Assembly: GCF_022023855.1 (NCBI RefSeq)
Contig: NZ_CP059450.1
Span: forward strand, 880,001 to 944,000
Length of the DNA stretch: 64,000 nucleotides
Direction: 5' to 3'
Source: Azospirillum brasilense
Lineage (GTDB): Bacteria; Pseudomonadota; Alphaproteobacteria; Azospirillales; Azospirillaceae
Part shown: positions 10,601-25,985 of the stretch, piece by piece
Layout of the letters: every line of letters begins with the position of its first letter
Numbering within the stretch: position 1 is the stretch's first letter
Position numbers and translations under genes: made by a program
The notes under the pieces: model-generated
The model's database searches: none
Told to the model about the DNA's origin: nothing
The model's input: the letters and a program-made list of their open reading frames with translations, nothing else

Positions 10601-11781
10601 CCCATCCACAGCAGCAGGATCGCGGCCAGCGCGGCGGCCCCCGTCCCCACCGGCCAGGAATAGCGGCGCCACGCGCGGGACGCGGCCAGCGCGCGGGTCG
10701 GCTTGGGCAGACCGGCCTCGGGGAAGATCTTGCGGTTCAGCAGGTCGCGCCCGAACAGCGCCGCCGCGTCCGGATCGGGACGGCCCGTGAAGTAGATGCC
10801 GCGGACGTAGAGCGTTTCCTGATAGGCGGTGCGCTTGAAGGCGGTGCCGAGCAGGGCGCGCAAGGCCGCCTCCGTCCCGGTCAGCCGCTCCGTCAGGGCG
10901 AACAGCGGGGCGCCGTCCGGCGTGGCCGTCGCGCCGAACACCTCCAGCTCCACCGCCAGCAGGCCGTCCGCCAGCGACTGCAGCGCCTCGCCGACGAAGT
11001 CGGGGGAGAACGCGGTCTCCAGCGCGTAGGGGCTCGACCAGCCGAGCATCCCGCCGGTCAGGGACGGGGGCAGAGCCTCGGCCAGCGCCGCGAAGCCGGG
11101 GGCCTCCTCGCAGCCCGTCACCACCACATAGACCGGCAGGGCGAAGCCCAGCGTGCGCTGGATCTCCCACAGCCGGGCATACAGCTCCGTCCCGCGCGCG
11201 GTGGCGCGGCGCACGTCGTCCAGCTCGGCCAGCGGAACGGTCAGGATCAGCCCGTCGGCGGGCAGCATCGGGCGGCGGCGCCCCAGCAGGTCCAGCACGC
11301 CCGCCCAGGCGGCACGCGGATCGTCCACATCGATGACCACCGCCCGGTCGTAGAAGCGCCAGGAGAAGCCGGCGTGCCGCTCGGCGGTCACCGGGGGGCG
11401 CACGTCCTCCGCGCAGGACAGCAGGCCGGCGTCGTCCGACGCGGCCAAGCCGGTGCGCAGGTACCAGGGCACCAGATAGACGTTGCGCGACAGCGTCTCG
11501 CGATAGGCGGCCAGACCGTCGCGGAACAGGCGGCGGATGTCGCGGATGGTGACGTCCGGCGCGGTGGCGACCAGCGCCGGGACAGCCCCGCCCTCCTCCA
11601 CCGTCGCGTCGGGCGGCGGCAGGGCCGCCGGCTCCGCCGGGGCGGGCGGCGCCGCGCTGCGGGCGCGCAGCAGGATCGCCGCCATCACAGCGATGATCAG
11701 CAGCACGAGGACGAGAAGCCCCGCGAAGACCCAGATCTGGTTGCCGGCGATGCCGGACAGGACCGCTGCCAGGAGTTCCAT
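7645..11781 (-). CDS. tssM: TssM (IcmF family), T6SS membrane-complex protein with degenerate P-loop
   Basis: The 1378-residue inner-membrane protein spans to the periplasm and forms the T6SS trans-envelope complex with TssL and a lipoprotein. Hydrophobic segments lie at about 16-38 and 370-390, with a large periplasmic C-terminal half. The conserved VPWYL motif is at 104-108. The nucleotide-binding motif that normally follows (GPPGSGKTT) is replaced by TGLAASDDAG, and the usual TKCD-like motif reads VTGCEEAPGF at 221-230. It probably does not bind nucleotide; some TssM proteins in other species naturally lack Walker A. A gap of 15 nt separates it from tssL upstream. Confidence 0.95.
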   Translation of the reverse strand: MELLAAVLSGIAGNQIWVFAGLLVLVLLIIAVMAAILLRARSAAPPAPAEPAALPPPDATVEEGGAVPALVATAPDVTIRDIRRLFRDGLAAYRETLSRNVYLVPWYLRTGLAASDDAGLLSCAEDVRPPVTAERHAGFSWRFYDRAVVIDVDDPRAAWAGVLDLLGRRRPMLPADGLILTVPLAELDDVRRATARGTELYARLWEIQRTLGFALPVYVVVTGCEEAPGFAALAEALPPSLTGGMLGWSSPYALETAFSPDFVGEALQSLADGLLAVELEVFGATATPDGAPLFALTERLTGTEAALRALLGTAFKRTAYQETLYVRGIYFTGRPDPDAAALFGRDLLNRKIFPEAGLPKPTRALAASRAWRRYSWPVGTGAAALAAILLLWMGVQRASTLSDRLVPVLADIPGGLQQLADQRPAVEAGAPMTAAYGDPAARFVQGVTMLPTDWTFNPLPASWISGVPDSVSGALAVGYRRLALSTVRDVAEDRLRRLTRDGGVGPVGAGAFERLRAFAGEVGIAEGLARAYNNVDARDPTLPLDEVLDFALGSGVARGFSARLHGWEIDQPPGGTAIPAPGPGAQRPIDLTAHRAEVSRRFRQYADAYLRDLAMGGLAAARLSVAANELELLAGGARSGADAAAAYAEVLSSLEDAARGLGAERGAWIGANGPALPPEFEALLGRLEKSDLLGPNLRADILDLAQRRYDEAGVGARSLDSVIGRLLEQAPNGGARLAPAAEQLRRTLSVWMARRFMKTDDTGALAMPAVGAGWDRAALDSIPPLVEDYLLFDAKDLLQAPAMLRTSMRVAAQHQLRQGVERILARALAGSPAGGGVDRAGGLAQLRASAHALRTAFPVLAETMQSFRQIGLTTSADTIRDTVARQANAVLAQADRLLEGDQLYRPDAHALDVWVDGPLVPHLLFGQTTPAGLALYLGNARQEVTVLARDIAAPVVEILERPVMGAGTGSGAASKWARIIAELDKYDGGRPNSSLAQLEKFVTVESAAVDAAGCQNLGAIDGVPDDFFRSRLAELKQWIATRCVLAADARVYDAYVDMAASFNEMLAGRFPFAAAAVPGEDADPAAVRAFYERFDARSAFVLEGLRRGERFGTAGREALRFVETMERARPLLIAAVTPDQSGGLALDPAFRVNRGREAGGSDIIEWKLATPNGALSSVLPRTPLRWYPGDRLSVTLRWAKDGTVLPVSGVGVGVTVDGPSLRFDYDGPWALFALAARQTAPQRDRRPGPDTEPLLLFEATASGPVKESANPAPMPIAPAAQATPQPAVKPNVRVFMTLAVKRTVLADGKPPREEKVAVPALPAQAPPLAPVGTMRRMPGLAGWPAPSGAVAPADRAFFDLGTPPSHSPMLRPAAQRFP

Positions 11782-11796: not shown

Positions 11797-12678
11797 TCAG
11801 CGGGTCACGCGGACGGATGCCTGAAGCACCGCGTCCGCCGCGTTGGAAAGCTGCGCGGTGGACATCCACCAGAGCGCCTGCCCCAGCACCAGCCACAGCC
11901 CGGCGATGGCCCCCAGCACCAGCGGCCAGCGCGGCCCGCGCGCCAGCGTGCGCGCCTTGCCGTCGGTCAGCGTGTAGGCGTAGGCGGCGGGGATCAGCGT
12001 CCGCCCGCCGGGCAGCACCCCGGCGCCCAGCTCGGACTCGCGGCCGGCGATGAACTCGAACAGGCGGGCGCTGTAGTCGCGCAGGGTGGACTCGCCGCCC
12101 GGCACCCGGCAGCGCCCCTTGAAGCCCATGCCGAGCACGCAGAGATAGACCGCCGCGAGCTGGACCAGCCGCCGGTCGTTGCTGGCGAGCAGCGCCTCCA
12201 TCCGGTCGAACACCCGCTCGCCGGCCAGCCGGGTGCGGAACACCGCCTGCTCCAGCAGCACGCTGCGCCACAGCTCACGCCCGTTCCATTCCACGTCGTG
12301 GATGAACAGATCGTCGGCCAGCGCCGCCATGGCGTATTGCGCCTCGCGGTGCTGGCTGATCATCAGGTCGGTGCCGGTGCGCCCGACCTGGACCGCCTGC
12401 GCCTCCAGGAAGTCCTGAAGGCGGCGGATGATGATCTCGGCATCGGGCTCCAGCGCCAGGGCCGGCACCGCCGCAGCACCGCGCGGCGCCGGGATCGCCA
12501 GGGCGTCCTCGGTCAGGAAGGCCGGCAGGCTGTCCGCCGTCTCCCCCGCGGCGCCCTCGGGCTTCGCCGCGGCGGCGGCCGGACGGCCCGCCCCGATCGA
12601 AGCGCGATGCTTCTGGAGTTCCCGCGCGAAGGCGAGGAAGTGATCGACCAGATCCCGGCGGTGCAGCATGGCGGTCAT
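11797..12678 (-). CDS. tssL: TssL (DotU/IcmH family), T6SS inner-membrane protein
   Basis: TssL joins TssM in the membrane complex and contacts the baseplate through its cytoplasmic domain. The 293-residue protein has the DotU pattern: YAMAALADDLFIHDVEW near 117-133, then FDRMEALLAS and YLCVLGMGFKGR. A single C-terminal membrane segment lies at about 250-270. An Ala/Pro-rich tract at about 30-70 precedes the domain. No C-terminal peptidoglycan-binding (OmpA) domain is fused, so wall anchoring must come from another protein, perhaps the SPOR proteins of the same unit. It overlaps nothing and lies 8 nt after tssK. Confidence 0.95.
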   Translation of the reverse strand: MTAMLHRRDLVDHFLAFARELQKHRASIGAGRPAAAAAKPEGAAGETADSLPAFLTEDALAIPAPRGAAAVPALALEPDAEIIIRRLQDFLEAQAVQVGRTGTDLMISQHREAQYAMAALADDLFIHDVEWNGRELWRSVLLEQAVFRTRLAGERVFDRMEALLASNDRRLVQLAAVYLCVLGMGFKGRCRVPGGESTLRDYSARLFEFIAGRESELGAGVLPGGRTLIPAAYAYTLTDGKARTLARGPRWPLVLGAIAGLWLVLGQALWWMSTAQLSNAADAVLQASVRVTR

Positions 12679-12686: not shown

Positions 12687-14030
12687 TCAGGCGCTGACGA
12701 AGAGGGTGATCTCGACGGGGCGGAAGCGGCTGCCCAGCGAGTCCGGATTCCAGATCTCCAGCCGTTCGCCGGGGACGATGTAGCGGGGATCGACCTTGAT
12801 CTCGAACGGCACCACGCCGCGCGGGGCGGCCACACCGCCCTCGCCGCTGTCGTCCAGCGCGACGCGCTCAGCCCCCTTGACGCGCAGGCCGGACAGCGTC
12901 TCCAGCCGCGAGCGCGAGGCGACGATGCAGTTCTCCATCCAGGCGGCGACCTCGCTGACCGGGGCGGAGGCCGGGCCGCGCACCCCGACGACCAGCCGGC
13001 CCTTCAGCCAGGCCTCGTCCATCGGCAGCCCGAACATGCCGTCCTCGAAGGTGAAGGGGATGCGGGCGACGCCCTCCTTCACGCGGTCGATCATGCGCAG
13101 GATGAAGTCGCGCACCTCGCCGAAGCTCGCCATCGGGTCGTCGTGGTCGTAGCGCGACAGCTTGGCCGGCACGGCGCCGCTGGCGAAGGCCGACAGGTGC
13201 CCGGCCAGCGTGCACAGCGACATGTAGACGTCGAACGGGTGGCAGACGCCGACGCCGAGCTGCGCCTCCAGCGGCGGCAGGCCGGTGACGAGGCTGCGGA
13301 TCTCCGCCCGCGCCGCCTCGGCCAGCTCGGTCGCCGGGTTGCCGTTGCCGACGCCGGAGCGCTCGGCCAGGAACAGCGCCTTCTCGCGCACGCGTCGCAC
13401 CACCTCCGCCCCCAGCCGGCCGAGCGGCGCGTTCGCGGCGACGGTGAGCGCCGGCGGCACGAAGTCGGTCAGCACGAAGGCGTCGTTGCGGAAGGTTGCC
13501 TGCGCGACCGGCATCGAGACGAACTTCTGCGGCGGCTTCTGGGTCGGGCCGGTGGTGGCGAACAGGGCCAGCCGCGGGCGCAGCCGGGCGATGGACAGCT
13601 CCTCCCCGCCATGCTGGTCGGCGACGGGCGCGCCCTCGACCGAGACGTAGCGCGGCGTCTCGCCCGGCCCCGGCGCGCGGTCGCCGCGGGCGGCGGGAAC
13701 GATCAGGTGGATGGTGATCTGCGTCTGCCCCACCGGGTCGGCGTAGGCGGAGATGTCCACCTCCAGCGGCTCGTCGACCCCGGCGCGGTAGTCCACGACG
13801 AGGCCGTCGGGCAGGATCGCCTCCAGCTCCCGCACCTGGACCAGCCCGGAGACGAGCTGCACGCGGTCGACCTGGAGATGGACGACGCCCCAATGGAAGG
13901 GCCGCGCCTGCCGGACATGGTAGGTCAGCTGCCGCTCGTGCCGCAGCGCCTGCTGCTGGAAATGCTGCGGGGCCAGCAGCATCCCGTCGTGCCAATCGAT
14001 GGCGTCGGGAATGTCGCGCGCCTCGGTCAT
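12687..14030 (-). CDS. tssK: TssK, T6SS baseplate protein
   Basis: TssK links the baseplate wedges (TssE, TssF, TssG) to the TssLM membrane complex. The 447-residue length and the N-terminal WHDGMLLAPQHFQQQALRHE motif (residues 13-32) are diagnostic. The C-terminal region with VPGERLEIWNPDS also fits. It is positioned between the lipoprotein gene and tssL, the usual K-L-M order. Confidence 0.97.
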   Translation of the reverse strand: MTEARDIPDAIDWHDGMLLAPQHFQQQALRHERQLTYHVRQARPFHWGVVHLQVDRVQLVSGLVQVRELEAILPDGLVVDYRAGVDEPLEVDISAYADPVGQTQITIHLIVPAARGDRAPGPGETPRYVSVEGAPVADQHGGEELSIARLRPRLALFATTGPTQKPPQKFVSMPVAQATFRNDAFVLTDFVPPALTVAANAPLGRLGAEVVRRVREKALFLAERSGVGNGNPATELAEAARAEIRSLVTGLPPLEAQLGVGVCHPFDVYMSLCTLAGHLSAFASGAVPAKLSRYDHDDPMASFGEVRDFILRMIDRVKEGVARIPFTFEDGMFGLPMDEAWLKGRLVVGVRGPASAPVSEVAAWMENCIVASRSRLETLSGLRVKGAERVALDDSGEGGVAAPRGVVPFEIKVDPRYIVPGERLEIWNPDSLGSRFRPVEITLFVSA

Positions 14031-14057: not shown

Positions 14058-14507
14058 TCACGGAACCAGTTCGACATCCTTGTCCCCGGCGGTGAGGGTC
14101 AGCGTTCGTGTGTCCGGCACGCGCAAGCGGTGCGGTCCCGGCGTGGAATAGTTGGCGAAGACCAGCAAGGCCCAGGCCGGTTCGCCCGGCGGCAGGTCCG
14201 TCTTCAGCGTCTGGCCGGGGACCAGTTCCCAGCTCGTCACGCCGAGCGTGGCCGGGTGGTCGCGCATGGACTGCTCGCGCTGGCCGAACCACTCCGCGGC
14301 GGTCAGCGCCCCCAGCTTGTCCACCAGCGCCTTGTCGCGGACGGCGACGAGGTCGATGGCGACCGGCGTGGTGTCGTTGGCGGCCGGGGCGACCGTGAAG
14401 GACACGCTGTCCAGCGCGGCGCGCGGCTTGTCCGCGCATCCGGCGACCAACAACGCCAGCGCCAGCGCGCCGGCCAAACCAAATCCTTTTCCGTTCACCG
14501 GAGTCAT
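14058..14507 (-). CDS. T6SS-associated lipoprotein, possible TssJ-like
   Basis: A 149-residue lipoprotein. The signal peptide ends in the lipobox LLVAGC, so Cys24 would be acylated, and the residue after Cys is Ala, favouring outer-membrane sorting. The rest contains TPVAIDLVAVRDKALVDKL and AEWFGQREQ, then a beta-rich tail. Its place directly upstream of tssK and the K-L-M order match TssJ, the outer-membrane partner of TssM. Sequence resemblance to classical TssJ is weak to the eye, so the TssJ name is an inference from position, length and lipidation. Confidence 0.8.
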   Translation of the reverse strand: MTPVNGKGFGLAGALALALLVAGCADKPRAALDSVSFTVAPAANDTTPVAIDLVAVRDKALVDKLGALTAAEWFGQREQSMRDHPATLGVTSWELVPGQTLKTDLPPGEPAWALLVFANYSTPGPHRLRVPDTRTLTLTAGDKDVELVP

Positions 14508-14512
14508 GGCGT

Positions 14513-15298
14513 TCAGCGCTCTCCCGCTTCGGCAAGGGTCACGACGGTTCCAGACACCCCGTTCGCCCGCGTCAGCGCGTCCAGCGCGCGGGCGGCCTCG
14601 TCGGCGGCGGCGTAGCGTCCGGTGCGCACGGCGTAGGGGGCGTTGCCGCCCGGCAGCGGCGCGAAATCGACCGTGCCGCGCACGCCGCGCTGGGCGGCGG
14701 CGGCGGCGAAGGACTCCGCGTTGGCCGGGGTGGCGAAACGCCCGAGTTCGATGGCGTAGTGGCGGACCGGCGACGCCCCGTCCTCCTTCATCGCGTCCAG
14801 CCGGTCGTTGAGCGTGTCCTCGACGATGCCTTCCACGCTGTTCCCGGCGAATTCGGTGACGCGGTAGCCGGTCTTCTCGATGACGTGGGCGGCGGTGCCG
14901 GCCATCCAGCCGGGCAGGAAGCGGCGGGCCGCGTCCGCGGCGCCGCGGGTCATAGGCTCGGTCGCCGAAATTGCCCGTCCGCGCGCCTCGTCGCTGAAGA
15001 TGTCCGCCGTCTCGATCACGCCCTGGCGGGCCTCGAAACTGTCGGCGACGCTGCTGCGTGCCATCGCACCCAGTCCGCCCCCGGCCGCGTCACCGGCCGC
15101 AGGTGCGCCGGCGGATGCCACGGAGGAAGCGGCGGCAGAGGCGGGTGCGGACGCCACCAGCGCGCCACCGCCATTGCCGCCGCCCGTCAGGATCAGCGCC
15201 GCCATCACCGCGCCGAGCAGCAGGGCCACGACGGTCAGCACGGCGACGCCGGCGGCCAGAGCCGCCACCTGCCATCGTCCGAGCGTGATCGTGGTCAT
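14513..15298 (-). CDS. SPOR-domain membrane protein in the T6SS operon
   Basis: A 261-residue protein with one N-terminal membrane segment (about 10-38, inside-out anchor). An Ala/Gly/Ser-rich linker leads to a C-terminal SPOR-like domain (about 185-255: HYAIELGRFATPANAESF, then YAVRTGRYA). SPOR domains bind denuded peptidoglycan. The start at 15298 (MTTITLGRW) is chosen because the membrane anchor follows directly; the frame stays open upstream without a plausible start. It is preceded by 217 nt without a gene and followed by the lipoprotein gene 5 nt later. It may anchor or position the T6SS at the cell wall. Confidence 0.85.
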   Translation of the reverse strand: MTTITLGRWQVAALAAGVAVLTVVALLLGAVMAALILTGGGNGGGALVASAPASAAASSVASAGAPAAGDAAGGGLGAMARSSVADSFEARQGVIETADIFSDEARGRAISATEPMTRGAADAARRFLPGWMAGTAAHVIEKTGYRVTEFAGNSVEGIVEDTLNDRLDAMKEDGASPVRHYAIELGRFATPANAESFAAAAAQRGVRGTVDFAPLPGGNAPYAVRTGRYAAADEAARALDALTRANGVSGTVVTLAEAGER

Positions 15299-15515: not shown

Positions 15516-16022
15516 TCATTCGCCGCCGCCGGCCTTCGCGGGATGGGCGGCGGCAAGCGGTTCCTCGACCACCACGCCGCCGATCCCAGCGGTCCGCTCG
15601 AAGGACGGGCGACGTGCCTCGGCCTGCCAGCGATCGGCGAAGGCGCCGGCGCGCACCCGATGCCATTGCCCGCCGGCGGCGTCCATGGTCTCGACGATTT
15701 CCACCGGAAGGCCCCGCCCGGCCAGCGCCGCCGCGAAGTCCTGGGCGTTCCCGGCGGAGCGGAAGACGCCGAGTTCAATGGAGAAGCGCGCCGTCGCCGC
15801 CTTCACTGACGCGACCGGACGGACCGGGACGGCGGCCGGCGCGGCCTTCTCCGGCTCTGCCTTTGCCGTCTCCTGCGGCACAGCGGCGGGCGCTGTCTTC
15901 GCTTCGGCGGGCGCGGGGTCGTCCGTGGCACCCGGCACGCTGCCCCCGGCCAGGAAATAGCCGCCGGCGAAGGCCACCAGGAGCAGGAGCAGCGCCAGCA
16001 CGCCGACCAGGAGTTTCTTCAT
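15516..16022 (-). CDS. SPOR-domain protein with N-terminal membrane anchor
   Basis: A 168-residue protein starting MKKLLVGVLALLLLLVAF, a single N-terminal membrane anchor. A Pro/Ala/Glu-rich linker follows to about residue 70. A SPOR-like domain covers about 78-150 (ARFSIELGVFRSAGNAQDFA, then HRVRAGAFADRWQAEA). It has the same layout as the neighbouring 261-residue SPOR protein, so the pair may be distant paralogues. It starts 10 nt after the stop of the lytic transglycosylase gene, linking peptidoglycan cutting and binding in one unit. Confidence 0.85.
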   Translation of the reverse strand: MKKLLVGVLALLLLLVAFAGGYFLAGGSVPGATDDPAPAEAKTAPAAVPQETAKAEPEKAAPAAVPVRPVASVKAATARFSIELGVFRSAGNAQDFAAALAGRGLPVEIVETMDAAGGQWHRVRAGAFADRWQAEARRPSFERTAGIGGVVVEEPLAAAHPAKAGGGE

Positions 16023-16032: not shown

Positions 16033-16632
16033 TCACGACTCCGGGCCGCCGCACAGCCGGCGCATCTCCGCCGTTTCGCGCTGGTAGCCGAGCCGCACCC
16101 GCCGGTCGAGCACGAGGCAGAGGTAGGTGTCCTGCGCCGTCGGGTTGCTGGCGTGGTAGCGGCGCACCGCCTCCGTCCAGGAGCCATGGCGGTCGTACAG
16201 CTCCCGCAGGAAGCGGGCGGCGTAGGCGACGTTGACCGCGGGGTCCAACATGTCCTCGCCCCCCGCGAAGGACCCGGCGTGCCAGCGCGTGTGGATCTGC
16301 ATGCAGCCGACCGCCACGTCGCCGCGCAGGCCGCCCTCGCCGTCCTGCATCAGCCGCAGCGCCTCGCGCCGCGTCGCCGGATAGTGCGGACGGCCGGAGA
16401 CGTTCAGCGCCCAGGGCCAGGGCATCCCAGCCCGCCCGGACTCCACGACGCTCATGGCGTGCAGGATGCCCGGCGGAATGCCGTAGAGCGCCTCCCCGTT
16501 GCGGAGGTAGCGGCTGCATTGGAACAGCGCCGGTCCGCCTTCGGACGCCGGGGCCAGCTCCGCCGCCGCCGGCCCGGCGAGCAAGGCGCCCATCAGGGCG
16601 AGCGCGCCGGCCAGGACGTTGCGCGTCCTCAT
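16033..16632 (-). CDS. Secreted lytic transglycosylase (SLT domain)
   Basis: A 199-residue exported enzyme predicted to cleave peptidoglycan glycan strands, which is needed to let large envelope machines through the wall. A signal peptide covers residues 1-24. The SLT fold shows the catalytic Glu64 in SVVESG, GCMQIH at 109-114 (the usual GLMQI with Leu replaced by Cys), NVAYAARFLRELY and AVRRYHAS. Its ATG overlaps the stop of the SpoIIE-like gene by 4 nt. T6SS clusters of several bacteria carry a dedicated transglycosylase such as MltE, so a role in membrane-complex insertion is likely. Confidence 0.9.
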   Translation of the reverse strand: MRTRNVLAGALALMGALLAGPAAAELAPASEGGPALFQCSRYLRNGEALYGIPPGILHAMSVVESGRAGMPWPWALNVSGRPHYPATRREALRLMQDGEGGLRGDVAVGCMQIHTRWHAGSFAGGEDMLDPAVNVAYAARFLRELYDRHGSWTEAVRRYHASNPTAQDTYLCLVLDRRVRLGYQRETAEMRRLCGGPES

Positions 16633-18653
16633 GCCCGCACCCGCAGGGCGACGCACAGCCGGTCCACCGCCATCGCGGCGGCGCCGCCATGCTCTGCCAG
16701 TCCGGCGGACACCGCCGCGGTGACGCTGGCGGCGGACAGGTCGTCGAGGTTGCCGAGGATGCCGGTCAACCGCGCCCGCCCGAAGGCGACGCCGAAGCGG
16801 TTCTCGCCGTCCAGCAGCCCGCCGTTGCACAGCACCAGCGTCGACGGCACCGGCAGGTCGAGCGCCGTCTCCACCGCCGTCATCGCCGGATCGAGGCCGA
16901 GCGGCGGGTTAGCCGCCACCGGCAGGTCCACCACGTCGCCGAAGCGCCGCAGCAGGAAGGGTTCCGGCACGCCGGCGGCGGCGAAGACCAGCCGGCGCGA
17001 GCGCGGCGACACGATGCCCATGGCGAGCCCGATCGACAGGCCCGCGGCGTTGTCCGCCGCCAGCAGCCGGTTGGCGCCGGTCAGGCAGGCTGCCGGCCCA
17101 AGCCCGGCCGCCGCCAGCGTCCGCAGCGCGGCGCGCGCCGTCACCGTCATGAAGCCCGCCGCCAGACCGCCACCCGACACCTGCCCGATCAGGACCGCCA
17201 GCGACCCGTCCGCCGTCAGGAAGAAATCGTAGAAGCTGCCGTCGAATTCCGCCGCCGGACGCATCAGGCCCGACGCTTCCAGGTCGGGCGCCGTGGTCAG
17301 GTCGCTCGGCAGGATCGCCGCCTGCATGCGCCGGGCGATCTCGAACTGCTTCTGCAGTTCCACAAGCTCGGTGCGGGTGTCCAGCGCGGACTGAAGCTGG
17401 CGGACCATGCCGTCGAGCGCCGTGTGCTGGTCGCGCACGCGCTCCGCCATCACCTCGAAGGCGACGGCGAGCGCGCCGGGATCGTCGGTGCGCGCGCAGG
17501 GTGTCCTCCCCTCCGACGCCGCCTCGATGCGGGCGAGGTCGGCGAGGAGTTCACGCCGCCCCTGCTCAGGCAGGGTTTCCGACAGGCGGAGCATCTGGCG
17601 GCGGATGAAGGACTGCTGGCGCAGCCAGTGACGGGCGCGCCGCTCCTCGGCGTCACGCAGCGCGCGGCTGCGGCTGCGGAAGACCTCGACGGTGCGGGCG
17701 AGCTGCCCGGCCTCGTCGGCGCGCTCCGCCCCCAGCACGGCAACGCCGGTGTCCCCCGCCGCCAGGGCCGACAAGGCGGACATGGAGGCGTAGACCGGCG
17801 TGAAGACGCGCCGGAAATACCAGTCCAGCCCCAGCGTCCCGGCCACCAGCACCATCAGCACCACCAGGATGGCGGAGCTGTCGAGCAGGCTGTCGGCCAT
17901 GGCGGCCAGCGTGGTCTCGCGTACGGTGACGAGGTACAGCGCGCCGTCCCCCTCCGTCCCGGCCGCCTTGGGCAGGCGCAGCTTGCGCACGCCGTAGCCG
18001 CGGGCGCCGATGGTCGCCTGCACCTCCTCGCCGCGCTCCGCGGCGGGACGCACGTCAGCCCAGGCCAGCGGCCCCGCATGGCCGTACAACGTGCCGTCGC
18101 TGCCGACCAGGAAGGCGGAGCCGCCGAGGACGCCGGCCAGTGCCTCCAGGCCGCCGGTCAGCGGACGGATGGCGATCAGAGCCCGGTCGGCCGGCCGCTG
18201 CGCGCCGAGGGGGCGGGCGAGCAGAAGCTGCGCGGCGCCGCCGGTCAGCACCAAGCCGTCCTGCGTGTCGTTGCGGGCCAGCACCTGCCCGATGCGCCTC
18301 TCGTCGAGAAGGCGGATCGGCTGGTCGGCCGGGACGGAGAGCAGGGTCTGCCCCGCGCCGTTGACCACCGTCGCCGCGGTGAAGCCCAGCGCGCCGAGCC
18401 GCTCCGCCGCCGCCGCGGCGTTGCCGCGCTCCAGAGCGTCGGTGAGGCGGGGATCGCCCACCGCCACCCGAGCGGCGGCGGCGGACTGGTCGAGCAGCCC
18501 TTCCCACAGCCGCAGGGTCATCCGCCCCTCGTCCTCAGCGTGGCGGGTGGCCCCGCTCTCGATGCGCAGCAGCGCGAAGACCGCGGCGGTGACGAGCACG
18601 GCGAGGACCACCGCGGCGGCGGCCACCGTCATGCGCTGGCGAAGACCGGTCAT
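16629..18653 (-). CDS. Membrane CACHE-like/HAMP/SpoIIE protein, probable pseudophosphatase
   Basis: The 674-residue protein has a membrane segment at about 8-28, a periplasmic sensor region to about 270, a second membrane segment, a HAMP-like linker (about 300-350), a coiled coil and a C-terminal SpoIIE/PP2C domain (about 440-674). It retains EIARRMQAAILPSD and the SpoIIE order. The metal-binding aspartates are missing: GGDxYD reads DGSFYD (471-476), GDVSG reads GQVSGGG (490-496), TDG reads CNGG (609-612) and the final DD reads DR. It is therefore probably a non-catalytic binding or scaffold version. It overlaps both neighbours by 4 nt (ATGA), coupling it to the transglycosylase and to the multi-TM sensor. 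Confidence 0.85.
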   Translation of the reverse strand: MTGLRQRMTVAAAAVVLAVLVTAAVFALLRIESGATRHAEDEGRMTLRLWEGLLDQSAAAARVAVGDPRLTDALERGNAAAAAERLGALGFTAATVVNGAGQTLLSVPADQPIRLLDERRIGQVLARNDTQDGLVLTGGAAQLLLARPLGAQRPADRALIAIRPLTGGLEALAGVLGGSAFLVGSDGTLYGHAGPLAWADVRPAAERGEEVQATIGARGYGVRKLRLPKAAGTEGDGALYLVTVRETTLAAMADSLLDSSAILVVLMVLVAGTLGLDWYFRRVFTPVYASMSALSALAAGDTGVAVLGAERADEAGQLARTVEVFRSRSRALRDAEERRARHWLRQQSFIRRQMLRLSETLPEQGRRELLADLARIEAASEGRTPCARTDDPGALAVAFEVMAERVRDQHTALDGMVRQLQSALDTRTELVELQKQFEIARRMQAAILPSDLTTAPDLEASGLMRPAAEFDGSFYDFFLTADGSLAVLIGQVSGGGLAAGFMTVTARAALRTLAAAGLGPAACLTGANRLLAADNAAGLSIGLAMGIVSPRSRRLVFAAAGVPEPFLLRRFGDVVDLPVAANPPLGLDPAMTAVETALDLPVPSTLVLCNGGLLDGENRFGVAFGRARLTGILGNLDDLSAASVTAAVSAGLAEHGGAAAMAVDRLCVALRVRA

Positions 18654-20593
18654 CGCGCGGCCTCCCCTTCGACCGGAACGCGCCGGCGCGGCGTGGCGTA
18701 GCGCCACAGGGCCAGGGCCAGCGGCGGCAGCGCGGCGATCCCGGCGAGCAGGGCGAGGGAGGGCAGCGTTCCGGCGGCCACTACCGTGTTGCTTCCGCCG
18801 GACAGCCACAGCACGCCGAGCGTTCCGGCCAGGGTCAGCGCGGCGCGGACCGCGGTCAGCCCCCCCCAATTTCCGGACGCCGCAAAGCCCGCATGGCCGG
18901 CGCCGAGCGCCGCGGCGGCGCCCAACGCGACGGCCGTTCCTGGCTCCACAGGGCCGAGCGCCAGGAGAAGCCCGACCGCCGCCGTCGCGCCCAAACTCAG
19001 CAGCGCCGCAGCCCCCCGCGGCACCAGCACCGCGACCAGTGCGGCGGCCAGCCAAGCCGGGGTGGCGTGCAGCCAGAAGAGTTCCGCGACCCGGCGGGCG
19101 TCCATCGCTCCGCCGCCGTCGGCCCGGCTCAACACCGCCAAGGCCAGCGCTGTGACCAGCCACAGCCCCCAACCCTTGGGACGCAATGCCCCGTCCACCC
19201 ACCAATGGTCCGCCGCCAGCAGAGCGCGGAGGGTTACGCGCGGCAGCGTCAGACCGCTCCGCCGCTCCAGCCGGACGGCGGCCAGCAGACCGGCCAATCC
19301 GGACAGCACCGCGCCGGCCATCAGAACATTTGGCACGCCACCGCCGATGCACAGGACCGACAGCCCCGTCCCAGCGACCAGACCGCCCGCGGCGGACACC
19401 GCCGGTCCGGCGCGCAGACTTTCCGCGGCGGGACGCGCCGCCTGGAAGGGAAGCGCCGCGGAAAGCCCGCCCAGCACCGCACCGCCCAACCACAGCGCCG
19501 CCCCGTCGCCGAGCCCGTTCAGCAGCGCCCAGCCGCCCAGCGCCAGCACCCCTGCAATAGGTGCCCGGCGGCCGATCGCGAAGGCGAGCGGCACCGCCGC
19601 GGCCATGCCCAGAACCACCCCGCCGAGCGCCACGCCCGGCGGCAGGTGCCGCGCCGCCATGGCCGCGGCCACGGCCGCCCCCACACCGGCGCAGAAGGCG
19701 GTGGCGTAGGGCAACGACCCGGCGTCCGGCGGCGCCAGCGCGGTCAGCCGGTCGGGCGAGAAGCGGCCCAGCCGCTCGATCCGCTCGATCAGCGGCGCCA
19801 CCTCCGCCGCGGCATCCTTGTTGAAGCTGAGATCGCGCACCTCGGCCAGATAGCTGCGCAGACGGGCGAAGCGGTCGTTCACTCCGGTCACCACCCGGTT
19901 CATCTCGGCCAGCAGAGTGCCGATCAGGCTCTGTTCCACCGGCGGGGCGATGCGGTCGTAGGCGGAGCGCGCGAGGCAGGATTCCAGCGACGCTGCCAGC
20001 CGGAGCGGCGTCGTCACCTGAGCGTTCAGCATGGTGCGCAGCGCCAGCCCGCCGAGCGCCAGCGCGATGCTCAGCGCCACCGCGAAGTCGATCAGGATGC
20101 GCGGCGCGTTGGCCGGCTGCGCCACGGCGCTGCGACCCAGCAGAACCTCCCCCGCTGTGGCGGCGCCCTGGCGGATGGGAAAGCGTTGCAGGACCAGACC
20201 CAGCGCGGACCAATCGGTTTCCGCTGGCACCAGCCGGACCGACAGGTCGGGGCGCGCGGCGTCGGACTTCTGGAACAGCGGGCGTCCGGCGCCGTCCACC
20301 ACCAAGATCAGCTTGATCTCCGGGAAGACCCCACCGGCCTCGCCCAGATAATCCTCCATCCCGGCCATGCGGTCGAGCGGCAGGCCGAGGGCCAGCGCCT
20401 TCTCCAGATCATGGGCGATGCCCGTCCCGACGATCTCGGCGCGGGAGGCGGTTCCCCGGTCGGCCAGCCCCGCCGCGGCGATCAGCGCCGCTGCCAGCGT
20501 GGCGAGCCAGGGCACGACGACCACCACCGCCATCAGCGAGATGAACCGCCGCAACATCCCTCGATTGAGGAACGGAGTCGCCGGGCGGGTCAT
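18650..20593 (-). CDS. Sensor-like membrane protein: periplasmic domain, HAMP-like linker and about 12 TM helices
   Basis: A 647-residue protein. A membrane segment lies at about 15-42. A periplasmic region resembling a CACHE sensor follows (GLPLDRMAGMEDYLGEAGG, then FPEIKLILVVDGAGRPLF near residues 70-108), then a second membrane segment at about 175-195. Next is a HAMP-like stretch with helices to about 270, then roughly 350 residues of hydrophobic helices spaced like a transporter (MFS-like) ending RYATPRRR. No transport motif was recognised with confidence. It shares 4-nt overlaps with the genes on either side. The design suggests that ligand binding or transport is signalled to the next protein; this is inference. 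Confidence 0.7.
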   Translation of the reverse strand: MTRPATPFLNRGMLRRFISLMAVVVVVPWLATLAAALIAAAGLADRGTASRAEIVGTGIAHDLEKALALGLPLDRMAGMEDYLGEAGGVFPEIKLILVVDGAGRPLFQKSDAARPDLSVRLVPAETDWSALGLVLQRFPIRQGAATAGEVLLGRSAVAQPANAPRILIDFAVALSIALALGGLALRTMLNAQVTTPLRLAASLESCLARSAYDRIAPPVEQSLIGTLLAEMNRVVTGVNDRFARLRSYLAEVRDLSFNKDAAAEVAPLIERIERLGRFSPDRLTALAPPDAGSLPYATAFCAGVGAAVAAAMAARHLPPGVALGGVVLGMAAAVPLAFAIGRRAPIAGVLALGGWALLNGLGDGAALWLGGAVLGGLSAALPFQAARPAAESLRAGPAVSAAGGLVAGTGLSVLCIGGGVPNVLMAGAVLSGLAGLLAAVRLERRSGLTLPRVTLRALLAADHWWVDGALRPKGWGLWLVTALALAVLSRADGGGAMDARRVAELFWLHATPAWLAAALVAVLVPRGAAALLSLGATAAVGLLLALGPVEPGTAVALGAAAALGAGHAGFAASGNWGGLTAVRAALTLAGTLGVLWLSGGSNTVVAAGTLPSLALLAGIAALPPLALALWRYATPRRRVPVEGEAAR

Positions 20594-21342
20594 CGCAGCA
20601 CCTCCCCGTCGATGCGGGCGGCCTCGGTCTCCGCCGCGCGCAGCCCGGCCAGGACGGCGGACAGCGCCGGATCGCCAACCGCCACGGCGGCAGACGCATC
20701 GGCCTGAAGCTGCCGCGCCTCGGCAGCATAAAAGGCCGTCCGCGCCAGAACGGACCGGCAGACGCCGGACAGCAGCAGCCGCGTGCCCAGAACAGCGAGA
20801 AGCCCGATGGCCGCCAGGAAGACGGCGGTGACCGTCGCCGTCTCGCGTAGCGCGGCCAGAACCTCCACCCGCGCGTCCTGCTGCGGGGCGAGGCCCAGCA
20901 CGGCGCCGGCGGGCTTGCCCAGGGCATCAGCCACCGGCACGCCGACCAGCACGCCATCGCGATCCGCGAGGTCCCACGGCTCCGCCGGCAGCCCAGCCGC
21001 GCCCCCCATCCAGGAGGCCGGCACCGGCGTCCCCGCCGCCTGGGCGGTGGCGAACAGCACGGTCCCGCGCGGGTCCACCACATAGAGCCGCAAGCCCCCG
21101 CCGCCGGTGGAGGCCACCTCGATCAGCCTTTGCAGGTCGTTCTGGTCGGCGAGCGGAAAGCCGATGGCGGCGCGCTCCGCCGCGCTGGCGGCCACGCGGC
21201 TGGCCAGCGCCGACGCGCGCGCAGCGATTTCCGCCGTGTGCGCCTCCGCCACCGCGTTGTGAAAGGCGAACAGGGTGAACGCCTGCCCGCCCACGGCGCA
21301 CAGCCACAACACAAGCGCCAGACGCCCGAAACCGTAGAGCAT
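20590..21342 (-). CDS. Two-TM periplasmic sensor-like protein, first gene of the minus T6SS block
   Basis: A 250-residue protein with membrane segments at about 8-30 and 170-192. Between them is a periplasmic domain containing FPLADQNDLQRLIEVASTGG and LRLYVVDPRGTVLF, a CACHE/PAS-like strand pattern also seen in the next protein. The cytoplasmic tail is a short helical stretch without an output domain. The start MLYGFGRLA at 21342 is chosen because the membrane anchor follows at once; the frame is open upstream but would add a charged leader. Its stop overlaps the next start (ATGA). Probably it works together with the two following sensor-like proteins. Confidence 0.7.
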   Translation of the reverse strand: MLYGFGRLALVLWLCAVGGQAFTLFAFHNAVAEAHTAEIAARASALASRVAASAAERAAIGFPLADQNDLQRLIEVASTGGGGLRLYVVDPRGTVLFATAQAAGTPVPASWMGGAAGLPAEPWDLADRDGVLVGVPVADALGKPAGAVLGLAPQQDARVEVLAALRETATVTAVFLAAIGLLAVLGTRLLLSGVCRSVLARTAFYAAEARQLQADASAAVAVGDPALSAVLAGLRAAETEAARIDGEVLR

Positions 21343-21498: not shown

Positions 21499-21813
21499 AT
21501 GAACCGGGATGCCCGCCTGCACGCCATCCTCGCCCGGCTGCGCAGCGACTCCTCCGGCGAGCGGCTGGCCGCCCTCTCCGCGCTGGAGCGGCTGATGCCC
21601 GCTGGGACCTCCCTCTACGAGGTCATCCAGGTCGGGCTGTTCTACACCGACCGCGGCACCGTCGCCCCCTCGCTGGTCGAGGAGGTGGACCGCCTGCGCG
21701 GCGAGGCGCAGGAGGCCACGCGGCGGGAGGAGCGGCAGCGCCGCCGCGTCCGGGCGCTGGAAACCGGTATCCGCGCCGTGATGGAGGAATTCCGTGGCGG
21801 CAAGGACGCCTGA
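21499..21813 (+). CDS. Small helical protein of unknown function, first gene of the plus T6SS block
   Basis: A 104-residue soluble protein not recognised as a known family. It is helical and charged (RLHAILARLRSDSSGERLAA, ending in an Arg/Glu-rich helix REERQRRRVRALE), with no membrane segment or signal. The ATG at 21499 is the one in frame with this codon-biased stretch; a nearby ATG at 21485 is out of frame. Its place at the head of the tssBC unit suggests a T6SS accessory or regulatory role. No function should be assumed. Confidence 0.6.
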   Translation: MNRDARLHAILARLRSDSSGERLAALSALERLMPAGTSLYEVIQVGLFYTDRGTVAPSLVEEVDRLRGEAQEATRREERQRRRVRALETGIRAVMEEFRGGKDA

Positions 21814-21941: not shown

Positions 21942-22577
21942 TTGCCCACCATCACAGCACCCTGTCAGCATGCCCTTTACGCCGCCGTGGACTCCGCGGC
22001 GGCGGCGCGCGGCATGACGGTGCCCGCCCTGATCCGCTCCTGCCTGACGCTGGTCGGGCCGGAGGCGCTGACCCATCTGCCCGATCCCGGCAGCCCCGAG
22101 CCGGTGGACGTCTCCCACCGCACCGTGACGCTGAAGAGCGGCGGCACCCGCCGCGTGCGGGTGGTGCCGAAGCTGCGGGTGCGCCACGCCACCCCACTGG
22201 ACGCGGCGACCGTGCGCAAAGCCGCCTGGGTCGCCGCCACCATCGGCAATGACGACGGCGCGCACCTCATCACCGCGGGCGAGCTGAACGCCGTGGAAAG
22301 CGAGATGAGCCGCTGCCGCCTGCGGCTGGAGCAGTTGACCGCGGCGCTGGAGACGTTGGCCTTCCGCCCACTGCGCCAGCCGATCCGCAAGCCCTGGCAG
22401 GCCACCTACGTGCTGGGCTTCACCCACGAATGGGGGCTGGACACGCAGACGGTCAACAGCCGCTTCCGCACGCTGGCTCCGATCTTCCATCCCGACACCG
22501 GCCTGCTCTCCAGCGCCGAGCGGATGAGTCAACTATTGGAGGCCCGCAACTTCCTCTTGCAGCACCTTCGAAGCTGA
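21942..22577 (+). CDS. J-domain-like protein in the T6SS plus block
   Basis: A 211-residue soluble protein. The C-terminal 55 residues look like a DnaJ domain: HEWGLDTQTVNSRFRTLAPI, the HPD motif at 183-185 (HPDTG), then SSAERMSQLLEARNFLLQ. J domains recruit and stimulate Hsp70. The N-terminal part contains a SCLTLVGPEAL segment and a helical coiled region at about 110-130. The start is taken as TTG at 21942 because GGAGG lies 4 nt upstream; an in-frame ATG lies 24 codons later. It sits upstream of tssB, suggesting chaperone help for sheath or ClpV-related steps. Confidence 0.7.
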   Translation: MPTITAPCQHALYAAVDSAAAARGMTVPALIRSCLTLVGPEALTHLPDPGSPEPVDVSHRTVTLKSGGTRRVRVVPKLRVRHATPLDAATVRKAAWVAATIGNDDGAHLITAGELNAVESEMSRCRLRLEQLTAALETLAFRPLRQPIRKPWQATYVLGFTHEWGLDTQTVNSRFRTLAPIFHPDTGLLSSAERMSQLLEARNFLLQHLRS

Positions 22578-22621: not shown

Positions 22622-22745
22622 TGTTCCGGGGCGATGTCGTCCAATTGGGGTCCATCTCGGCTGGCCTCCGCGGGGGTGCCTTTCGAATGATGGCGAAGCT
22701 CGACAGCCGGCGCGCGACGCGCACAACCCTATGAGGTCGTCAGAT

Positions 22746-23282
22746 ATGAGCGAGAGCAGTCAGAAGAAGTTGGAGCGCGTCCGCCCGCCGCGGGTGAAGC
22801 TCACCTACGAGGTCCACACCGGTGGCGCCCAGGAGATGAAGGAGCTGCCCTTCCTGGTCGGCATCCTGGCCGATCTCAGCGGCAAGCCGGAGAAGCCCCT
22901 TCCCAAGCTGAAGGAGCGCAAGTTCGTCGAGATCGACCGCGACAACTTCAACGACGTGATGGCCTCCGTCGGACCGCGCCTCGCCTTCCAAGTGGACAAC
23001 AAACTGCAGGAGGACGGCGGCAAGCTGAACATCCTGCTGAACATGCGCCACATGGACGATTTCCAGCCGGTCGAGGTGCTGAAGCAGGTGCCGACGCTGA
23101 GCCGCCTGTTCGAAGCCCGGCAGAAGCTGTCGGACCTGCTGGCCAAGCTGGACGGCAACGACGAATTGAACGGCCTGCTGAACGACGTCATCACCAGCAC
23201 CGAGCAGCAGGACGAGCTGAAGAAGCTCCTCGGCCCGGTGGCCGGTGCCCCGGCCGGCGAGCCCGCGGGCGAGCCCGCCTGA
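22746..23282 (+). CDS. tssB: TssB, T6SS contractile sheath small subunit
   Basis: TssB and TssC together polymerise into the contractile sheath. The 178-residue protein carries the TssB pattern: VKLTYEVHTGGAQEMKELPF, LVGILADLSGK near 40 and FNDVMASVGPRL near 75. The ATG at 22746 is preferred over an in-frame ATG 15 nt upstream because GAGGT lies 8 nt before it. A Pro/Ala/Gly/Glu repeat tail ends the protein. tssC follows after 49 nt. Confidence 0.97.
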   Translation: MSESSQKKLERVRPPRVKLTYEVHTGGAQEMKELPFLVGILADLSGKPEKPLPKLKERKFVEIDRDNFNDVMASVGPRLAFQVDNKLQEDGGKLNILLNMRHMDDFQPVEVLKQVPTLSRLFEARQKLSDLLAKLDGNDELNGLLNDVITSTEQQDELKKLLGPVAGAPAGEPAGEPA

Positions 23283-23331
23283 TTCCCCGTCCCGTCAAGC
23301 CCAATCAGAACCCCCTTCACGGAGCGAACAG

Positions 23332-24801
23332 GTGAGCACGGAAACGTCCGTTGAGAGCGCCGCCAATCTGTCCCTGCTCGACCGCATGATGGTCGAAGGC
23401 AAGATGGCGCGCGAGGAGGGCCAGCGGCCCTACGCCCGCGACCTTCTGACCGAATTCGTCGACCAAGTCCTCGCCGAGACCGGCGACGCCTCCGCCATCG
23501 ACGTGGTCGAGGCGATCAACCAGCGCATCGCGCAGATCGACGAGCTGATCAGCGACCAGCTGAACGAGGTCATGCACCACCCCGACTTCCAGAAGCTGGA
23601 AGGCACGTGGCGCGGCCTCAACTACCTCGTCATGAACACCGAGACCTCGACGACGCTGAAGCTGCGCGTCCTCAACGTCTCGCGCAAGGACCTCCAGAAG
23701 GACCTGGACAGCGCGGTCGAGTTCGACCAGAGCGCCATGTTCAAGATGGTCTACGAGGCCGAGTACGGCACGCTGGGCGGCACGCCCTACAGCATGCTGG
23801 TCGGTGACTACGAGTTCGGCCGCCATCCGCAGGACATCTCCCTGCTGGAGAAGATGTCGAACCTCGCCGCCGCCGCCCACGCGCCGTTCATCAGCGCCGT
23901 GTCGCCGGCGATGTTCGACATGGAGAACTTCGGCGAGCTGGGCGCCCCGCGCGACCTGTCGAAGATCTTCGAGACGGCCGAGATGGTGAAGTGGCGCTCC
24001 TTCCGCGCGTCGGAGGACTCCCGCTACGTCTCGCTGACCATGCCGCACGTCCTGATGCGCCTGCCCTACGGCCCGAACACCGTTCCGGTCGAAGGCATGA
24101 ACTTCGTCGAGGACACCGACGGCCGCGATCATTCCAAGTACCTGTGGGGCAATGCCTCCTGGGCGCTGGCCGCGCGCATCACCGACAGCTTCGCCAAGCA
24201 CGGCTGGACCGCGGCCATCCGCGGCGTGGAAGGCGGCGGCAAGGTCGAGGGTCTGCCCAGCCACACCTTCAAGACCGACGAGGGCGACGTCGCCCTGAAG
24301 TGCCCGACGGAGATCGCCATCACCGATCGCCGCGAGAAGGAGCTGAACGACCTCGGCTTCATCTCGCTGGTCCACTGCAAGAACACGGATTACGCGGCGT
24401 TCTTCAGCGGCCAGACCACCAACAAGCCGAAGGTCTACAACACTGACGAGGCCAACGCGAACGCCCGCATCTCCGCGATGCTGCCGTACATGCTGGTGTC
24501 GTCGCGCTTCGCCCATTACCTGAAGGTGATGCTGCGCGACAAGATCGGCGCCTTCCTGACGCGCAACAACATCACGGACCACCTGAACACCTGGATCGCC
24601 AACTACGTCCTGCTGGACGACGAGGCGTCGCAGGGCACGAAGGCCCGTTTCCCGCTGCGCGAGGCCCGCATCGACGTCTACGACGTGCCGGGCCGTCCGG
24701 GCGTCTACCGCGCCAACATCTTCCTGCGTCCGCATTTCCAGCTCGAAGAGCTGTCGGCCTCCATCCGCATGGTCGCCGAACTGCCGGCGCCGGAAGCCTG
24801 A
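23332..24801 (+). CDS. tssC: TssC, T6SS contractile sheath large subunit
   Basis: The 489-residue sheath protein shows classic TssC motifs: LEGTWRGLNYLVMNTETS, GDYEFGRHPQDISLLEKM, FRASEDSRYVSLTMPHVLMR and the C-terminal ISAMLPYMLVSSRFAHYLKV. The start is GTG at 23332 with GGAG 8 nt upstream; the open frame extends further upstream into tssB but has no ribosome site. Hcp follows after 38 nt. Confidence 0.97.
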   Translation: MSTETSVESAANLSLLDRMMVEGKMAREEGQRPYARDLLTEFVDQVLAETGDASAIDVVEAINQRIAQIDELISDQLNEVMHHPDFQKLEGTWRGLNYLVMNTETSTTLKLRVLNVSRKDLQKDLDSAVEFDQSAMFKMVYEAEYGTLGGTPYSMLVGDYEFGRHPQDISLLEKMSNLAAAAHAPFISAVSPAMFDMENFGELGAPRDLSKIFETAEMVKWRSFRASEDSRYVSLTMPHVLMRLPYGPNTVPVEGMNFVEDTDGRDHSKYLWGNASWALAARITDSFAKHGWTAAIRGVEGGGKVEGLPSHTFKTDEGDVALKCPTEIAITDRREKELNDLGFISLVHCKNTDYAAFFSGQTTNKPKVYNTDEANANARISAMLPYMLVSSRFAHYLKVMLRDKIGAFLTRNNITDHLNTWIANYVLLDDEASQGTKARFPLREARIDVYDVPGRPGVYRANIFLRPHFQLEELSASIRMVAELPAPEA

Positions 24802-24839
24802 TCCCCTCCCCCCGAACGCATCGTCCGGAGTAAATCCGC

Positions 24840-25355
24840 ATGTCTATGATCATTCTCGATATCCCCAACGTCCAGGGGGAGTCCGCGGTGGAGATCGCCG
24901 GGGGCGTGGTGTTCAAGGACATGATCCTGTGCGAATCCCTGTCGCAGGACATGACCGTCGAAATGGAAGTGTCGACCAACGCCCGCCGCACGGTCCACAC
25001 CCCGAAGGTCGAGAACATCACGCTTGAGCGCAAGTGGGACCGGGCCTCGCCCAAGCTGATCTCGCTGCTGCTGCGCTCGGCCAACTCCGACACGGCGAAG
25101 AAGCAGTGGACCATCCACTGCCTGAAGCCGATCGGCGACAGCCACCAGTGGGGCGAGTTCCTGACGATCGAGCTGACCAACCCGCTGATCGCCAAGCACA
25201 GCCTGAGCGTCAACGAGGGCGACACGACCGAGACCATCGAGATCAACGCCACCGAGATCTACTGGACCTACAAGCGCTACACCGAGGAGCAGAAGCACGA
25301 AGGCGGTGGCGGCGTGAAGTTCAACCTGCTGAAGGGCACCGTCTCCGACAGCTGA
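24840..25355 (+). CDS. hcp: Hcp, T6SS tube protein, copy 2
   Basis: The 171-residue protein begins MSMIILDIPNVQGESAVE, with the Hcp DRASPKLISLLL motif near 68-79 and a beta-rich C-terminus. It sits directly after tssBC, the usual place for the main tube protein, with GGAG upstream of its ATG. It is clearly distinct from the copy at 5962-6519. A 142-nt gap filled by a palindromic repeat separates it from tssE. Confidence 0.95.
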   Translation: MSMIILDIPNVQGESAVEIAGGVVFKDMILCESLSQDMTVEMEVSTNARRTVHTPKVENITLERKWDRASPKLISLLLRSANSDTAKKQWTIHCLKPIGDSHQWGEFLTIELTNPLIAKHSLSVNEGDTTETIEINATEIYWTYKRYTEEQKHEGGGGVKFNLLKGTVSDS

Positions 25356-25367
25356 GGTGGTAAATAA

Positions 25368-25472
25368 CCCTCTCCCCGCTGGGGAGAGGGAAGGGTGAGG
25401 GGGTTGTGCATGTCGGCACGTCCGGCACACGCGCACCCCCTCATCCTAACCTTCTCCCCGGAGGGGAGAAGG
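25368..25472. repeat. Palindromic intergenic repeat, copy 1 (two hairpins)
   Basis: Two GC-rich hairpins in one unit: CCCTCTCCCC-GCT-GGGGAGAGGG (25368-25390) and CCTTCTCCCC-GGA-GGGGAGAAGG (25450-25472). They are joined by an inner segment whose edges are also inverted (AGGGTGAGGGGG against CCCCCTCATCCT). It lies inside the T6SS operon between hcp and tssE and may act as a transcript processing or attenuation point. Related elements occur at 34253, 40456 and 62599. Confidence 0.8.
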
Positions 25473-25497
25473 AATTGAAGCTCCAACGGACACGGCG

Positions 25498-25971
25498 ATG
25501 ACCCAGCCCAAGACGATGACCGGCGGACGGTCGCTGCTGTTCGAACGGCTGATCGACTTCGAACCGGACCACCCGACGGGCGACGAGCCGTCCGCCACGG
25601 TGCTGTCCATGCCCGACCTCAAGGCGTCGATCCGGCGCGAGGTCGCGCGCATCCTCGACAGCCGCAGCACCGGCACCCGCCGCTCCGACCTCGGCGGAAC
25701 GGCACTGGACTATGGGATTTCCGACATCACGCATCTGGACGCCGCCTCCGACGCCGACCGCCGTCAGGTGGAACGGATGGTGCGACAGGCGATCATCGAT
25801 TTCGAGCCGCGGCTGAAGCGCCCGCGGGTGACCGTCAGCGCCGGAACCGGGCGCGGCACCATGGTCACCAGCATCTCCGGCGAGGTCGTGGCGGGCACCG
25901 TCACCGAACGGCTGGAGTTCGACGTGGGTCTGCGCGGCCCGGCCCCCACCGAGCCAAGCCAGTCCGGCTGA
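25498..25971 (+). CDS. tssE: TssE, T6SS baseplate gp25-like protein
   Basis: A 157-residue wedge protein related to phage T4 gp25. It shows LLFERLIDFEP near 14-24, SIRREVARILDSRSTGTR and LDYGISDITHL. The RxGxx EFE-like sheath docking region is represented by GISDI and VERMVRQAIIDFEPRL. It begins 25 nt after the repeat element and tssF follows after 14 nt. Confidence 0.93.
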   Translation: MTQPKTMTGGRSLLFERLIDFEPDHPTGDEPSATVLSMPDLKASIRREVARILDSRSTGTRRSDLGGTALDYGISDITHLDAASDADRRQVERMVRQAIIDFEPRLKRPRVTVSAGTGRGTMVTSISGEVVAGTVTERLEFDVGLRGPAPTEPSQSG

Positions 25972-25985
25972 AAGGACGCACCAGG

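Follow-up and report, generated by a model that had tools for sequence, protein, structure and literature searches.

The type VI secretion system (T6SS) locus found in a 64,000-nt stretch of the genome of Azospirillum brasilense (hereafter, the window) contains a gene (16629..18653, reverse strand, with its ATG start at 18653) for a 674-aa SpoIIE-type membrane protein, designated here SpoIIE*, which is almost certainly a pseudoenzyme because every side-chain ligand of metals M1 and M2 is gone. We consider, with a probability of around 0.55, that SpoIIE* is a non-catalytic membrane sensor/adaptor similar to RssB, in which a dimer switch would govern binding to a partner in the T6SS or the cell wall. 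The replicon carrying the window is 2.05 Mb long, in a genome of 7.4 Mb, and the orthologues of SpoIIE* with 98% identity come from A. brasilense and close relatives.

Metal ligands, fold and conservation of SpoIIE*

From its N-terminus, SpoIIE* comprises a transmembrane (TM) segment (residues 10–28), a periplasmic sensor-like domain (approximately 35–245), a second TM segment (256–274), a HAMP domain (approximately 292–327), a coiled linker and a pseudo-PP2C domain (approximately 463–674) without metal ligands. The protein clearly belongs to the SpoIIE family (PF07228; 88.3 bits, with a cut-off of 25) and Pfam retrieved, besides, only a weak match to HAMP over residues 292–327; no N-terminal receiver domain is present. 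The SpoIIE-domain motifs quoted in an earlier note on this DNA, made from the sequence alone, are all found in the 674-aa open reading frame (ORF).

In SpoIIE from B. subtilis, M1 is bound by D628, D746, and D795, and M2 by D628, G629, and D610 (PMC3517971, PMC5468089). We located these positions in SpoIIE* using a MAFFT alignment with 19 catalytically intact homologues and, independently, a profile hidden Markov model (HMM) of those 19; in both cases, D610, D628, D746, and D795 corresponded to S473, Q491, G611, and V663, respectively. The motifs have thus changed from VGGD to FDGS473, from ADVSG to GQ491VSG, from TDG to NG611G, and from sDDiTc to A-V663-D664-R665-L-C. The range of the structural alignment between an AlphaFold model of SpoIIE* and 5ucg also makes D795 fall on V663, matching the sequence alignments. 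The earlier note proposed that the ligands were substituted at four sites, and all four aspartates are indeed gone; however, its reading of the last motif as DR in place of DD was one residue out, because it is the first D of the pair, the ligand, that has been lost, whereas the second, D664, is retained by all the orthologues, with R665 taking the place of the I/M that comes next. A misaligned register hiding the aspartates was ruled out by the agreement of MAFFT, the profile HMM and the structure range, the last motif being the only one whose register changed; likewise, the alignment with active homologues, suggested in that note as a check, did not place the catalytic aspartates elsewhere.

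The loss is shared by the whole group, since Asp is absent from the four ligand sites in 22/22 T6SS-linked sequences (L009–L029 and L089), whereas all four are present in 19 of the other 20 full-length homologues, the remaining one being L054 (see below). A sequencing error, a frameshift or a pseudogene were also ruled out, as the frames are intact and the same losses occur in the 22 sequences. With all the M1 and M2 side-chain ligands gone, and this state being fixed and under selection, the data strongly support the proposal of the earlier note that the phosphatase appears dead.

According to the predicted structure, SpoIIE* retains the PP2C fold. Residues 463–674 of the AlphaFold model pair with residues 596–806 of 5ucg (Z of 19.1, root mean square deviation of 2.7, 206 aligned residues), and the Z scores of the pseudo-PP2C model obtained with VIA-align were 19.2 to SiaA-PP2C, 19.1 to SpoIIE (5ucg), and 14.7 to the pseudo-PP2C TAB1. 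The top Foldseek matches, as well as the best PDB sequence matches, were structures of RssB from P. aeruginosa. There was also a partial match to the NCBIfam equivalog for SiaA (NF038263), with 60.3 bits and far under its cut-off of 700.

A family-wide search of 82 genomes, to which a class-wide search was added, retrieved SpoIIE* from 21 genomes of the family (Azospirillaceae), with 40–100% identity, and a further one from another family (genome G121, loci L074/L089; 36% by blastp). The T6SS-linked SpoIIE* sequences formed a monophyletic clade (support of 100/99), whose sister was L054 (251–2317, from genome G052; support of 99/100), although this sequence is on a long branch and its position needs caution. 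L054 is itself degenerate, with E, S, E, and G at the ligand positions, and is a possible intermediate in ligand loss. It is followed by a methyltransferase-like gene with a 36–42% match to one found in other T6SS clusters.

The values of dN/dS (the ratio of non-synonymous to synonymous substitution rates; Nei-Gojobori) were 0.04–0.30 for the pseudo-PP2C domain in eight pairs vs. 0.06–0.27 in active paralogues, and 0.00–0.32 for its N-terminal half, which contains the switch helices; additionally, every SpoIIE* orthologue found has an intact frame with no internal stop. Judging from these sequence comparisons, purifying selection on the pseudo-PP2C domain is as strong as in the active paralogues, which indicates a stable pseudoenzyme and not decay. 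Sequence variation was unevenly distributed: identity among four orthologues was 50% at the ligand positions, 75–80% in the linker (392–455) and the switch helices, and 93% in the β1-β2 loop. The linker has changed more slowly than the periplasmic part of the protein. Except for Q491, the ligand positions drift among orthologues (S/A/G, G/S/P, V/Q/R). The conserved linker and switch helices, together with the low dN/dS and the drifting ligands, suggest that this pseudoenzyme has kept a binding and switching function. The α3/4 loop, one of the three substrate-docking loops of SpoIIE and RsbU (PMC11418112), is 70% identical in SpoIIE* vs. 32% in active homologues from Azospirillum, with the borders of the loop being approximate because they derive from the predicted model; the other two docking loops did not show a comparable excess of identity in SpoIIE* over those homologues.

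The sensor cassette and its T6SS

Two membrane protein genes precede the gene for SpoIIE* in the same strand, forming a cassette with it. The first, TM250 (20590..21342), codes for a small membrane sensor, as deduced from blastp and a TM scan; we propose that it starts at the ATG in 21342 (250 aa) from the length of its orthologues (252–271 aa), the mechanically predicted ORF being longer (20590–21915). The second, TM647 (18650..20593), would contain an N-terminal TM segment, a periplasmic PAS/CACHE-like domain, a HAMP-like region, and a C-terminal half with multiple TM segments, according to the TM scan and a low-confidence model (pLDDT of 56) that was too poor for a fold search; it had no match in Pfam or NCBIfam.

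Downstream, and also in the reverse strand, there are genes for a lytic transglycosylase with an SLT domain (16033..16632), whose start overlaps the stop codon of SpoIIE* (ATGA), and for two SPOR-domain membrane proteins (15516..16022 and 14513..15298), the first of which would bind peptidoglycan as deduced from its family. The ATGA-type overlaps between TM250 and TM647, TM647 and SpoIIE*, and SpoIIE* and the SLT gene indicate that these four genes are translationally coupled. After the SPOR genes come TssJ (14058..14507; identified by position and sequence, and with orthologues in every locus), TssK (12687..14030), TssL (11797..12678), and TssM (7645..11781; TIGR03348 with 95 bits, under the equivalog cut-off). 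This T6SS also has a divergent arm in the forward strand, which opens with a conserved 104-aa protein (21499..21813; orthologues in L039, L040, L042–L044, and L089) and a conserved 211-aa protein (21942..22577), whose C-terminus resembles a J-domain by eye and contains the tripeptide HPD, and which had no Pfam or NCBIfam match, and continues with TssB, TssC, Hcp, TssE, TssF, TssG, TssH (ClpV), and VgrG (22731..33553).

The order TM250-TM647-SpoIIE*-SLT-SPOR-SPOR-TssJ-TssK-TssL-TssM is constant in those same six neighbour loci, apart from minor extra ORFs in gene calls made with a simple codon-usage script; L041 lacks the first cassette genes owing to a contig end. Using TssK as a marker for co-occurrence, we found SpoIIE* in 21 of the 22 genomes of the family with this TssK type (at least 59% identity), and in the 22nd (L090) the contig ends within the SLT gene that adjoins the expected position of SpoIIE*. 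Conversely, it was in none of the 18 genomes of the family with other TssK types (35–45% identity), of which G052 has the degenerate sister L054, located on a different contig; the possibility that SpoIIE* is a T6SS-wide feature was therefore ruled out. In the nearest T6SS lineages outside of the family (G185 and G456; 44–45% identity in TssK), the region upstream of tssJ contains no cassette and no SLT/SPOR genes, and the cassette was likewise not found upstream of tssJ in the T6SS loci read in G003, G011, G029, and G045.

The earlier note indicated that no kinase was visible, and this can be extended to the other usual phospho-control partners. The genome contains two matches to Pkinase, three to FHA, and two to the PppA-type PP2C_2, with none of them in the window; the nearest Pkinase in the same replicon is around 250 kb from SpoIIE*, and FHA is completely absent from G057 and G121. 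Nor is there any STAS match (PF01740) in the window, although a search elsewhere in the genome, also suggested in the note, yielded nine. The only match to HATPase_c_2 (RsbW-type) in the window, at approximately 55 kb, was below the cut-off (23 bits) and lies in a 607-aa frame outside of the T6SS genes, while HATPase_c_2 genes adjoin other SpoIIE genes of the genome. From the alternatives raised in the note, a binding role for SpoIIE* is likely, whereas the gene content does not support strict partner-switching in this locus, because both STAS and RsbW-type genes are missing from it. Its comparison with PpkA/PppA holds only as an analogy: the PppA-type PP2C_2 is a different branch of PP2C proteins, and SpoIIE* is of the RsbU/SiaA/RssB type.

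A proposed conformational switch without catalysis

In our proposal, one T6SS lineage has incorporated a membrane sensor encoded by three genes (TM250-TM647-SpoIIE*), with SpoIIE* as its output subunit. A periplasmic or envelope signal would be sensed by the three proteins and transmitted through HAMP and the coiled coil to a dimeric pseudo-PP2C domain, where the old phosphatase switch, instead of positioning a metal, would open or close a docking surface, as in the adaptor RssB. The dimer could then bind or release a partner involved in T6SS assembly or in cell-wall remodelling; the most likely point of action is the peptidoglycan-crossing step in the assembly of TssJLM, because the lytic transglycosylase and SPOR genes are coupled to SpoIIE*. 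There are precedents for these elements, since in RssB the PP2C switch serves an adaptor function without catalysis (PMC5468089, PMC7226468) and dimers of PPM phosphatases are driven by coiled-coil linkers (PMC12143880). Additionally, A. brasilense Sp7 has a fructose-induced T6SS that kills both E. coli and Agrobacterium (PMC11837500), and this strain carries the gene for SpoIIE* (97.8% identity) on plasmid ABSP7_p1; the T6SS is, therefore, functional even though its operon includes a dead phosphatase.

Several points weigh against the sensor/adaptor proposal. SpoIIE* is absent from the table of fructose-induced T6SS proteins of Sp7 (PMC11837500), and its position in the operon is the only link to T6SS activity. 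The AlphaFold model is of moderate quality (mean pLDDT of 66, with values under 50 in the linker), and a purely structural role in an envelope complex, without any signal, fits the same data.

Such a structural role is the most probable of the alternatives, although we consider it distinctly less probable than the proposal, at roughly one chance in five. SpoIIE* would then be a constitutive scaffold, a dimeric anchor rather than a switch, which places the lytic transglycosylase and the SPOR proteins where TssJLM crosses the peptidoglycan. This agrees with the gene overlap and the invariant order with SLT-SPOR-SPOR-TssJKLM in all the loci read, as well as with the simultaneous lack of the cassette and of SLT/SPOR genes upstream of tssJ in the sister lineages G185 and G456. 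However, periplasmic sensor-like domains and HAMP have been maintained, with a periplasmic part evolving faster than the linker, which is more typical of sensors than of scaffolds, and the intact relatives of SpoIIE* sit among signalling proteins.

It is rather unlikely that SpoIIE* is a decoy acting in trans, that is, that it binds a STAS protein encoded elsewhere, protecting or sequestering it, to tune another partner-switch. The genome certainly offers candidates, with its nine STAS matches and its HATPase_c_2 genes beside other SpoIIE genes, and STAS genes come after the active relatives; yet the T6SS locus contains no STAS gene, a partner encoded locally is more in keeping with the strict T6SS linkage of SpoIIE*, and the intact full-length cassette co-occurs with SpoIIE* in only one (G021) of the 19 Azospirillum genomes that have it.

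Very improbable is that SpoIIE* is still an enzyme, with a metal site rebuilt using D471, D476, or D664, or with some other chemistry. These residues are near the old site and invariant in a nine-row alignment, D471 and D476 lying outside of the ligand positions, but the M1 ligands D628, D746, and D795 were lost together with the D610 position, and the drift of all the ligand positions except Q491 is as expected of a released site. Lastly, a decaying phosphatase relic, kept only by its place inside the operon, would explain the loss of the catalytic residues but is already contradicted by the low dN/dS of the domain, the intact frames, and its conservation into another family.

The sensor/adaptor proposal for SpoIIE* can be compared with known systems. 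In RssB from E. coli and P. aeruginosa, the PP2C/PPM domain is a protein-binding output operated through a linker and switch helices, and the active-site residues are absent from the E. coli protein, as they are from SpoIIE* (PMC7226468, PMC5468089); RssB, however, is a soluble, receiver-domain protein that takes sigma-S to ClpXP, whereas SpoIIE* is a HAMP membrane sensor in a T6SS operon. The periplasmic domain, HAMP and RsbU-type PP2C are shared with SiaA, from the SiaABCD system of P. aeruginosa, which is also the best structural match. SiaA, in contrast, is catalytically active and has a phosphoprotein as its partner, while SpoIIE* lacks every ligand and falls far short of the cut-off for the SiaA equivalog. 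SpoIIE, RsbU, and RsbP share with it PF07228, the order of motifs, the switch helices and the coiled linker, but not the loss of metal ligands or a locus devoid of a STAS substrate and an RsbW-type kinase. As in the PpkA-PppA-Fha pathway, post-translational control proteins, including one with a PP2C fold, would be encoded within the T6SS locus, although here kinase, FHA, and PppA are lacking and the PP2C domain is non-catalytic and from another branch. Finally, the eukaryotic pseudo-PP2Cs TAB1 (PMC5468089) and PHLPP2 (PMC12002173) also keep the fold with a metal site that has diverged and is no longer functional, but they differ in pathway and domain context.

Bradshaw et al. (PMC5468089) proposed that the PP2C switch may persist without catalysis, with RssB as the bacterial example; SpoIIE* would be a second case, membrane-bound and linked to a T6SS, pointing to a class of T6SS regulators outside of the PpkA/PppA/Fha pathway. 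In the open-licence literature, we found no paper in which a T6SS locus was linked to STAS partner-switching or to proteins of the SpoIIE type, which is weak evidence of novelty, and the only one naming both SpoIIE and pseudophosphatase concerns the eukaryotic PHLPP. Azospirillum is a plant-associated genus used as crop inoculant, and its T6SS is known to kill competitors.

Intact relatives beside another T6SS

Full-length homologues of SpoIIE* with intact ligands (around 33% identity) are found in a related cassette containing genes for TM250, MFS, ABC substrate-binding, GNAT-like, TM258, HAMP/TM, SpoIIE, STAS, and receiver-domain proteins. Both cassettes have in common a homologous trio (TM250, the HAMP/TM partner, to which TM647 is homologous by blastp, and SpoIIE) arranged in the same order, with the two partner genes being approximately 22–38% identical. 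In at least eight Azospirillum genomes (G012, G013, G018, G021, G024, G027, G034, and G037), around 7.5 kb separate the intact cassette from the TssK of a different T6SS, both being in the same strand, and an FHA gene adjoins this TssK in 8/8 genomes. We read five of these eight loci (L105–L109), and three clusters to their other end (L115, L116, and L117), again with genes called by the codon-usage script, where TssM is followed by a kinase-like and an RsbW-like gene; Pfam confirmed the kinase, HATPase_c_2, FHA, DotU, and IcmF in G037 (L115 and L105). Likewise, in G352, which belongs to another family (L095, L110, and L122), a T6SS that includes kinase, FHA, TagF, and PppA lies between an intact SpoIIE cassette and, at its opposite end, RsbW-like and STAS genes. 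The intact cassette occurs without an adjoining T6SS in G003, G011, G016, and G044.

With intact cassettes beside another T6SS, the association of this sensor family extends beyond a single T6SS type; from the gene content, the T6SS in the window is the version lacking phospho-relay genes and catalysis together. It may be, although we consider it less likely than not, that a SpoIIE/partner-switch type of membrane sensor cassette controls the T6SSs of alphaproteobacteria; it would use an intact phosphatase with STAS, RsbW-like, PpkA-type, and FHA proteins from the same cluster in one lineage, and purely conformational signalling by a pseudophosphatase, without phospho-partners, in that of the window. 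Active and dead cassettes occur in the same genus and are, thus, directly comparable.

Some genes of the kind found in the intact cassette (MFS, ABC substrate-binding, and GNAT-like) are additional neighbours of the SpoIIE*-bearing T6SS in G057 (L113, 14480–19901) and G001 (L040, 403–4627). Another T6SS, in G033 (L111–L112), has TagF-like, FHA-like, and PppA-type genes and no SpoIIE cassette in the region read, indicating that there are several types of T6SS among Azospirillum genomes, which differ in their set of phospho-control genes. The genome containing the window codes for a second, partly degenerate SpoIIE protein (C2:687426-688001; L003, and L100 7379–9352), which keeps GDFYD and shows GVSG, TEG, and GD at the other sites, with one of the four ligands. 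Similar proteins of around 690 aa are present in most Azospirillum genomes and constitute another candidate pseudophosphatase.

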